Shown one piece after another: positions 21,608-43,286 of a stretch of 64,000 bases of DNA; position 1 is the first letter of the stretch, and every line of letters starts with the position of its first letter. The stretch spans positions 3,136,501-3,200,500 of the forward strand of contig NZ_ARWE01000001.1 in assembly GCF_000384395.1 (NCBI RefSeq). The letters run 5' to 3'. The stretch comes from Geopsychrobacter electrodiphilus DSM 16401. Its GTDB lineage: Bacteria > Desulfobacterota > Desulfuromonadia > Desulfuromonadales > Geopsychrobacteraceae. The notes beneath the pieces are model-generated. The model had not been told where the DNA came from and made no database searches. It saw nothing but the letters and a program-made list of their open reading frames with translations. Position numbers and translations under genes: made by a program.

Positions 21608-23305
<1,698 letters not shown>

Positions 23306-34110: not shown

Positions 34111-34321
34111 TACCTTTCTCTCCCAAGCCTTTCAAACGGCCACTTATATTACGCAGTCAGACATCATACCTGCCAGGCAACCCAGCCATACCAGTTAAGC
34201 TTTAATTGGAAGCTCCTCAAAATATCTAATAGTCGACACCTGGCTGTTGGATATTCTTCACCTTATCTGTTATTAATTTACATAAAATCTACAAGCGCTT
34301 GATTTTAAACATTTTTATTAT

Positions 34322-34337
34322 TGGCACAAGACTTGAT
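34322..34337 (+). promoter_or_regulatory. Sigma-54-like promoter before the repeat-protein gene
   Basis: TGGCAC-AAGAC-TTGAT matches the -24 TGGCAC and N5 spacing; the -12 element is TTGAT in place of TTGCT. The loss of the C at -12 makes it doubtful. Predicted start is about 45 bases before the ATG. The rest of the 34111-34393 gap shows no gene. Confidence 0.4.
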
Positions 34338-34393
34338 ATATAGCTTGGTCAAGCAGCACAAATCATTTAACTTTTCCTTTCAAGGAGATGACC

Positions 34394-34954
34394 ATGAAAA
34401 AGAACACTGCATTAACCGTTACATTCGCAAGTCTCTTCGTCGCCGCCAGCTTTTTAACCTTCAGTGCTGTCAATTTCGACCAGGAACTCGGAGCCCGGGA
34501 CGGCATCAACAGCTACGCCGCTGTGAACTTTGACAAGGAACTCGGTCCCCGTGATGACATCAACAAATACGCCGCCGTGAACTTCGACAAAGAACTCGGT
34601 CCCCGTGATGACATCAACAAATACGCCGCCGTGAACTTCGACAAGGAACTTGGTCCCCGTGATGACATCAACAGCTACGCCGCTGTGAACTTTGACAAGG
34701 AACTCGGTCCCCGTGATGACATCAACAAATACGCCGCCGTGAACTTCGACAAGGAACTCGGTCCCCGTGATGACATCAACAAATACGCCGCCGTGAACTT
34801 CGACAAGGAACTCGGTCCCCGTGATGACATCAACAAATACGCCGCCGTGAACTTCGACAAGGAACTCGGTCCCCGTGATGACATCAACAAATACGCCGCT
34901 GTGAACTTCGACAAGGAACTCGGTTCCCGTGATGACATCAACCGCTATGCTTAA
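34394..34954 (+). CDS. Secreted or anchored protein of nine 18-residue repeats, function unknown
   Basis: A 186-residue protein. A Lys-Lys start and a hydrophobic stretch (TALTVTFASLFVAASFLTF) act as signal peptide or anchor. The rest is nine tandem copies of an 18-residue unit, consensus AAVNFDKELGPRDDINKY. The first copy is divergent (SAVNFDQELGARDGINSY) and the last slightly so (GSRDDINRY). There is no Cys and many Asp, Lys and Asn. ATG 34394 has AAGGAG at 6 bases; the earlier ATG at 34388 abuts the SD. Nearly identical DNA units mean recent expansion. I recognise no family. Confidence 0.75.
   Translation: MKKNTALTVTFASLFVAASFLTFSAVNFDQELGARDGINSYAAVNFDKELGPRDDINKYAAVNFDKELGPRDDINKYAAVNFDKELGPRDDINSYAAVNFDKELGPRDDINKYAAVNFDKELGPRDDINKYAAVNFDKELGPRDDINKYAAVNFDKELGPRDDINKYAAVNFDKELGSRDDINRYA
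34463..34948 (+). repeat. Nine 54-bp tandem repeats within a coding sequence
   Basis: The array is exactly 9 x 54 bp in frame. Units 2-8 differ at only a few positions (AAC/T, AAA/AAG, AAATAC against AGCTAC). The frame is open on the other strand too, an artefact of the repeat. Copy number may vary by slippage or recombination. Confidence 0.95.
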
Positions 34955-35016
34955 ATGAGGCTGAGCACCTAGTTCTGTCATGAGTTTTATTTAGAAAATA
35001 TTTTTATTCGTTAAAT

Positions 35017-35048
35017 AAAAGGGCCCTTCAAAATGGGCCCTTTTTTTT
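35017..35048 (+). terminator. Intrinsic terminator of the repeat-protein gene
   Basis: AAAGGGCCC pairs with GGGCCCTTT around an 8-base loop, followed by a run of eight T that includes the last bases of the stem. Confidence 0.92.
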
Positions 35049-43136: not shown

Positions 43137-43223
43137 GCTCTAAAGACGTCCACTCCTGCCTGTTTTTTAAACAGAATCATTCACTAATATCCGTAACATA
43201 CCGATTTTATATATTTTTTTTTC

Positions 43224-43239
43224 TGGCACGCCGGTTGCT
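43224..43239 (+). promoter_or_regulatory. Sigma-54 promoter of amtB
   Basis: TGGCAC-GCCGG-TTGCT matches the -24/-12 consensus at every conserved position with the correct N5 spacing. It lies 48 bases upstream of the amtB ATG and implies NtrC-type activation under nitrogen limitation. Confidence 0.9.
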
Positions 43240-43286
43240 AAATCCAAAGGAGGCACTGAAGCCTATGTTTTCCCGGAGGATCGAAG

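Follow-up and report, generated by a model that had tools for sequence, protein, structure and literature searches.

A predicted exported repeat protein as a probable member of a ZraSR-like sigma-54 regulon in Geopsychrobacter electrodiphilus and its relatives

According to PMC4987338, zraSR and zraP are transcribed divergently from sigma-54 promoters that are both driven by ZraR, and the ZraP protein acts as a zinc-dependent chaperone in the periplasm; a reference cited there names ZraP in its title as a repressor of ZraSR. The locus described here resembles ZraPSR of Escherichia coli and Salmonella in combining an exported accessory protein with a sigma-54 response regulator. In seven relatives of the organism studied, the repeat gene is also divergent from a kinase-regulator operon, with the operator in between. 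The likeness is incomplete. The repeat gene of the window genome is not beside its kinase operon, the repeat protein has neither an LTXXQ/Metal_resist match nor a His-rich metal motif, and RND efflux operons here use the same promoter. ZraP has a His-rich metal-binding segment; judged by sequence and composition, the repeat protein is not a ZraP.

Spy and CpxP are folded helical proteins. The likeness to them lies in small size, export and a link to a regulator operon that also encodes an HtrA-type protease; a Metal_resist-like protein (L201) has the same promoter as the repeat gene, and another (L115) is encoded divergently from a repeat gene. The repeat protein itself has no match to Spy or CpxP. 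With the CusCBA regulon (CusRS) the locus shares cusCBA-type operons and periplasmic metal-binding proteins, but the promoter here is of sigma-54 type whereas CusR is an OmpR-type regulator. Curli consist of imperfect, Gly- and Asn-containing repeats of some 18-22 residues. Sec export (predicted here) and imperfect repeats of similar length with Gly and Asn are points of likeness to curli and FapC; unlike them, the repeat protein has no curlin match, no curli operon was seen, and its 21-residue relatives are predicted to be structureless. Searches of the open-licence PMC literature brought up no description of the repeat family or of its operator.

The repeat gene, its array and its relatives

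The window analysed was a stretch of 64,000 nucleotides of the G. electrodiphilus DSM 16401 genome, which is a single contig (C1) of 4,241,730 bp. The repeat-protein gene occupies window positions 34394..34954 (+) and encodes 186 residues plus a stop codon. A reading made beforehand from the sequence only had proposed an open reading frame at 34388-34954; its frame and end were retained and its start was moved. The ATG at 34394, two codons 3' of that at 34388, is most likely the start, because the ribosome-binding site AAGGAG (34382..34387, +; position kept in relatives) ends 6 nt before 34394 and abuts 34388, and because the relative L004 shows CTG at the 34388 position.

In the product, 24 signal-like residues precede nine units of 18 residues; there is no other part, and the last residue is a unit boundary. 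The putative signal peptide MKKNTALTVTFASLFVAASFLTFS (34394..34465, +; hydrophobic core, cleavage site approximate) is followed by nine in-frame 54-bp units with the consensus AVNFDKELGPRDDINKYA (34466..34951, +); TRF run on the window reported 34475-34942, period 54, score 810. An intrinsic terminator of 10 pairs followed by a T run is located at 35017..35044 (+). The sequence-only reading of nine in-frame units, a good ribosome site, a terminator and a probably secreted protein was therefore borne out, secretion by the signal-like N-terminus followed by units only. No Cys, His, Met or Trp occurs in the unit, and no His, Cys or Met beyond residue 24. An antisense ORF (34454-34981, -; 175 aa) spans the whole array and is probably a by-product of the repeats. 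Elsewhere in the window, the 9-mer CATGCCACC is present in five tandem copies (21614-21658).

Units agree inside one genome and differ from genome to genome and from genus to genus. Since they are alike within a gene and unlike between genera, the array was considered homogenised. Copy number varied as had been anticipated, with 9 and 7 units in the two own-genome copies and 8, 7 and 5 in L003, L004 and L005. When codon departures from the array consensus were pooled over five 18-residue arrays, 77 were synonymous and 60 nonsynonymous, where neutrality predicts a synonymous fraction of 0.19-0.28 (binomial p about 2e-12, a value that treats departures as independent and overstates the certainty). 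The L005 array by itself runs opposite (4 synonymous, 11 nonsynonymous); three arrays of 21-residue units, outside the pooled test, gave 58 synonymous and 16 nonsynonymous departures. The repeat unit is under selection and the array is real coding sequence.

The second own-genome repeat gene, of seven units, lies at C1:3805660-3806145. From window 33831 onward, which is still within the 3' end of the FG-GAP gene upstream, the DNA of the two copies matches at 88% identity; the second copy is therefore a segmental duplication, and its present surroundings contain transposase-like and metal genes (gene names mostly read by eye). The gene order of the window (thioredoxin-like, porin, FG-GAP protein, repeat gene, ABC-F) is the same in G005 and is kept in G007 minus ABC-F.

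By protein search and promoter search, 19 repeat genes were collected from 16 genomes: two each from G000, G006 and G034 and one each from G003, G005, G007, G010, G017, G021, G027, G028, G029, G031, G041, G042 and G043. Seventeen are complete and two are cut by contig ends; a repeat fragment on contig C170 of G031 was left out of the count. All 19 fall in the organism's own bacterial family, and their presence in 16 of its 44 searched genomes indicates that they are dispensable. The 54 other genomes of the order yielded no repeat gene; all protein matches and part of the promoter matches in them were read. A profile of ten members searched against 395 genomes of the phylum, at least three others of the own bacterial family among them, matched the own genome only, and a plasmid tblastn search with the repeat protein gave no match. 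The protein search returned matches at E<=1 in 14 of 98 genomes, and those in seven (G000, G003, G005, G007, G010, G027 and G031) were judged real by reading. Ten weak genome matches were rejected as not being repeat proteins: six LpxA-/NeuD-like acyltransferases, one flagellar protein, one response regulator and two in which no repeat was read in frame. Decayed repeat genes were present in G007 (two) and G031 (loci L194 and L190) behind promoters with both elements described below. Such remnants are a sign of birth and death of repeat genes.

Unit length in the family is 16-21 residues, the 17 of G006 being half of a 34-residue unit, and the unit sequences are alike in their core (NFDxELGxxDDINxYA and RLDDxELGIGxYSExA). 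A hydrophobic core lies inside the first 40 residues of all 19 members. After the first 24 residues, members contain 17-29% Asp+Glu and have a net charge of -4 to -32 (n=19); Cys occurs in one of 19, Met is absent from 17 and His from 11. The G003 member (L116 9462-9917) carries H-x-W-x-M in five units, a spacing which we take to recall the CusF-type Cu(I)/Ag(I) site, and His is found in several units of the G006, G042, G021, G017 and G034 members.

Promoter, operator and genes with the same control region

A sigma-54 type -24/-12 promoter, TTGGCACAAGACTTGATATA (TTGGCAC-N5-TTGATATA), is located at 34321..34340 (+). The element is conserved, is identical in the own-genome paralogue, and its TTGGCA is invariant across seven aligned repeat-gene promoters, which strengthens what had been proposed as a possible sigma-54 promoter. 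Two candidate activator sites lie upstream. The proximal site, UAS2 (TGTTGGATATTCTTCA, 34245..34260, +), has 2 mismatches to the palindrome TGTNGAATATTCNACA; the distal site, UAS1 (TATCTAATAGTCGACA, 34223..34238, +), has 3, stands 22 bp upstream of UAS2 and is aligned with the second palindrome of the relatives. In the first eight repeat genes, two such palindromes 21-22 bp apart precede the -24/-12 element. The UAS2-type site also precedes other repeat genes, cusC operons and the histidine-kinase gene. The distance from the start of UAS2 to the start of TTGG was 76-78 bp in 10 of 14 promoters (eight of repeat genes and six others; the proximal site of L054 is weak, with 5 mismatches), 89 bp in one and 98-99 bp in three, spacings that are consistent with steps of about one helical turn. 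At <=2 mismatches TGTNGAATATTCNACA occurs at 25 places in the own genome, against 6 for the reversed control. Promoter, ribosome-binding site and signal-like start are kept across genera.

Genes with the same control region were sought with a promoter model (R2) made from the seven repeat-gene promoters only, so as to avoid circularity. It replaced a model (R1; 84 of 98 genomes at E<=0.01) that included three promoters not belonging to repeat genes and whose lax threshold admits plain sigma-54 sites. One of these lies in the window before an AmtB-like ammonium transporter gene (43175-43241; CTGGCAC-N5-TTGCTA); this partial R1 match looks, from its sequence, like an ordinary nitrogen-control promoter.

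In the 98 genomes, R2 gave 44 matches at E<=1e-6, 37 of them beyond the 7 training sites. These 37 comprised 13 CusC-type outer-membrane efflux genes, 11 repeat genes, three decayed repeat-gene remnants, two sigma-54 response regulators, two Met/His-rich or Spy-like periplasmic proteins, one tautomerase operon, two TetR genes behind a gap, one porin, one other secreted protein and one match cut by a contig end. Pfam was run on six of the 13 CusC-type genes and returned OEP in all six, and on one of the two regulators (G078), where receiver, sigma-54 and HTH_8 domains were found; the remaining names are readings by eye. The own efflux operon encodes a protein of the CusA/CzcA family (TIGR00914, above cut-off), a CusB-like adaptor with a heavy-metal-binding domain and an OEP; the score on the CusB-type NCBIfam model was below its cut-off. 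Met-rich, Metal_resist-like proteins, each slightly below the Pfam cut-off, are encoded under the same promoter in G029 (L201) and divergently from the repeat gene in G010 (L115).

Further occurrences were seen in the own genome. Two closely similar CusCBA-type operons (L073 9467-15978 and L069 879-7384) both carry an exact palindrome and a sigma-54 site, and one of them is situated in the stretch of metal and transposase-like genes that also contains the second repeat gene. HMA-domain operons (C1:3803412 and 3877350) and a zinc-ribbon gene (C1:1901253) have both elements at longer spacing and likely belong to the regulon. An operon present twice (L053 391-1488 and L060 506-1441) begins with a gene whose product joins an HMA domain to a SurA-like N-terminal domain; MacB-like ABC genes are next, and palindromes and a sigma-54 site are again found at longer spacing. 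The same kind of promoter stands before a tautomerase gene with a TVP38/TMEM64-type gene (L050 1100-1660) and, in G034, before a repeat gene followed by a TVP38-type gene (L197 328-3101). A CopA-like multicopper oxidase gene was not counted as a target, since the scan found no sigma-54 site to go with its palindrome (2 mismatches).

The kinase-regulator operon

In seven genomes (G003, G027, G028, G029, G034, G042 and G043) the repeat gene lies between an AEC transporter gene and a kinase gene and is divergent from the latter; in G041 it diverges from the regulator gene and a kinase gene that is truncated. The kinase has a membrane N-terminus (DUF4118 weak, below cut-off). Genes downstream of it were read in four of the seven genomes and encode a sigma-54 response regulator, an HtrA-type protease and a thioredoxin-like protein; CcdA-, Fur- and FeoB-like proteins, named by eye, follow as well. 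In the G003 copy of the regulator, Pfam identified a receiver, an AAA sigma-54 interaction domain and a Fis-type HTH. The own copy, searched against NCBIfam only, scored 370 bits on the ZraR equivalog NF007689 (cut-off 760) and higher, 457 bits, on the AtoC model (cut-off 714); no equivalog cut-off was passed among the best 25 matches listed. The own HtrA was below the Do-family cut-off (337 vs 416).

Of 136 genomes of the order, 90 contain the kinase N-terminus at E<=1e-40, nearly always once. Sixty-nine of 94 kinase matches were taken for upstream reading, and 67 regions were long enough. The palindrome was present at <=1 mismatch in 32 of these 67 regions (15 exact) and absent from 35; the reversed pattern occurred in 0/67 and mononucleotide shuffles gave 0. 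When regions facing a repeat gene, a decayed one or cusC were excluded, the palindrome was still present in 19 of 54, and for genomes outside the own bacterial family the count was 9 of 36. These counts link the palindrome to the kinase-regulator pair independently of repeat genes; binding of the regulator to it is putative. Five kinase regions face a cusC gene (G015, G020, G034, G036 and G041) and three, one of which was checked, an SCO1-like gene.

The own kinase operon (C1:2321905-2325689) has no repeat gene adjacent. One palindrome (2 mismatches) lies in its gap, where neither a repeat gene nor, by scan, a sigma-54 site was found. The own genome encodes at least one further sigma-54 two-component pair, a response regulator and a PAS-type histidine kinase in the metal-gene region (L071:4169-7353, -) with no palindrome nearby. 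This pair, and not the kinase-operon regulator, could control the window gene.

Structure and possible function of the repeat protein

The structure prediction proposed at the outset gave a divided result. With five 18-residue members, AlphaFold2 placed one strand of about 10 residues in each unit, but at a pLDDT of 56.6 and a pTM of 0.56; with four 21-residue members (G017 first) only the signal helix was formed (pLDDT 43, pTM 0.11). Foldseek of the window model gave no PDB match at E<=0.001, and the FapC and CsgA fibrils stood at ranks 5 (E 0.21) and 9 (E 0.38). Sequence searches agreed with the view that no known repeat family is represented. Pfam matches to the window protein were all below curated cut-offs (best DUF2164, E 1.3e-5, 25.5 vs 27 bits), as were those to NCBIfam (LpxA model, E 4.8e-5, 22.6 vs 226 bits). 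The PHROGs matches (best E 9.9e-10, covering six residues of one unit) had no stretch that passes alone, and the PDB sequence search gave three matches at E 0.44-0.45, with an LpxD-type protein at E 0.44. ZraP/LTXXQ (PF13801, PF07813) was not matched at Pfam E<=10, a range in which HMMER filters lose most matches above 0.1, nor was the curlin repeat domain matched in Pfam. Perfect repeats are known to give false beta-solenoids in AlphaFold2, according to PMC11795689. Because of this artefact and the low model confidence, disorder appears weakly favoured as likelier than a solenoid. The window unit keeps a hydrophobic hexad (Val/Leu/Ile every 6 residues), and this, with the weak matches to beta-helix acyltransferases, tells somewhat against disorder; an uninterrupted hexad is not family-wide, since units of 16, 17, 19, 20 and 21 residues occur.

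The repeat gene very probably belongs to a ZraSR-like regulon, judging from its promoter and operator. The imperfect UAS sites of the window gene, its separation from the own kinase operon, the 35 kinase regions that lack the palindrome and the NCBIfam scores of the own regulator and HtrA tell against this. On balance we favour the reading that the product is an exported, acidic and probably disordered effector of that regulon, which would respond to metal, probably copper/silver, and to envelope stress. Metal or envelope stress would activate the ZraSR-like two-component system, whose regulator would then bind to the tandem palindromes and switch on transcription from the sigma-54 promoter. 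After export by Sec and removal of its signal, the protein would be left as a periplasmic or extracellular string of acidic, probably disordered repeats, and would fill the place that ZraP has beside ZraSR. Copper/silver was inferred as the inducer because of the CusA/CusB similarity; zinc, cobalt or general envelope stress may be the inducer instead. More tentatively, and with the balance somewhat against it, the string may act stoichiometrically, as a multivalent buffer or chaperone that binds envelope components exposed to stress with low affinity. Its targets would be metal cations and/or unfolded proteins, and its capacity would scale with copy number. Such a role was preferred over that of an enzyme or specific ligand because the protein is made up entirely of repeats whose number varies and whose sequence drifts while the charge is kept.

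Other readings bear on what the units do. A direct metal role had been among the first suggestions, and the promoter common to metal-efflux operons speaks for some connection with metal. The further step, a dedicated sponge in which each unit chelates copper or another metal, is unlikely. The units are acidic, and H-x-W-x-M in G003 and the His-bearing units of five other genomes would suit it, but past residue 24 there is no His in 11 of 19 members (the window protein included), no Cys in 18 and no Met in 17. Carboxylates by themselves are poor Cu(I)/Ag(I) ligands. As its unit has no Cys, His, Met or Trp, the window protein does not appear to bind soft metals as other regulon members do, and soft-metal chelation by it is unlikely; elsewhere in the family the G003 motif and the His-bearing members may allow it. 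Stacking of the units as a beta-solenoid or amyloid-like fibre, with a part in adhesion or matrix, is a little less likely again. The predicted strand in each unit, the hexad of the 18-residue unit, the left-handed beta-helix acyltransferases among the weak matches (LpxA, LpxD-type and six of the ten weak genome matches), the rank of FapC and CsgA despite their E values, and two CsgG-like genes in the own genome can be cited for it. Set against these are the low pLDDT, the featureless models of the 21-residue relatives, the false-solenoid artefact described in PMC11795689, the unit lengths that interrupt the hexad, the lack of a PDB match at E<=0.001 or of a Pfam curlin match, and the absence of recognised curli-type neighbours in the 3.5-kb loci around the CsgG-like genes. 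The earlier proposals of surface adhesion, mineral binding and fibre formation are not supported.

Cleavage of a polyprotein precursor into short signal peptides, perhaps by the HtrA of the kinase operon, is very unlikely. It would account for an exported part made of units only and ending on a unit boundary, for the HtrA-type gene and for units that diverge between genera while homogenised within one; no conserved dibasic or other cut site was seen by eye between units across members, and no accompanying receptor or exporter was seen. That the ORF is a chance or decaying repeat devoid of function is the least credible reading and highly improbable: the decayed copies in G007 and G031 and the patchy distribution fit it, but the synonymous excess within arrays and the conservation of promoter, ribosome-binding site and signal-like start across genera do not.

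The favoured reading, an exported acidic effector of a ZraSR-like regulon, would carry a wider consequence that we regard as speculative. The family could represent a new class of metal/envelope-stress effector, in which disordered, acidic, exported repeats take the position of ZraP beside a sigma-54 two-component system that is widespread in the order. In such a class, equally speculatively, copy number would tune capacity and sequence would drift fast, while charge, length class and promoter are kept. An orphan repeat family gains a regulatory address, and its function becomes directly testable. A sigma-54 metal/envelope-stress regulon is also outlined in many genomes of the order, with a defined and often paired operator, TGTNGAATATTCNACA.
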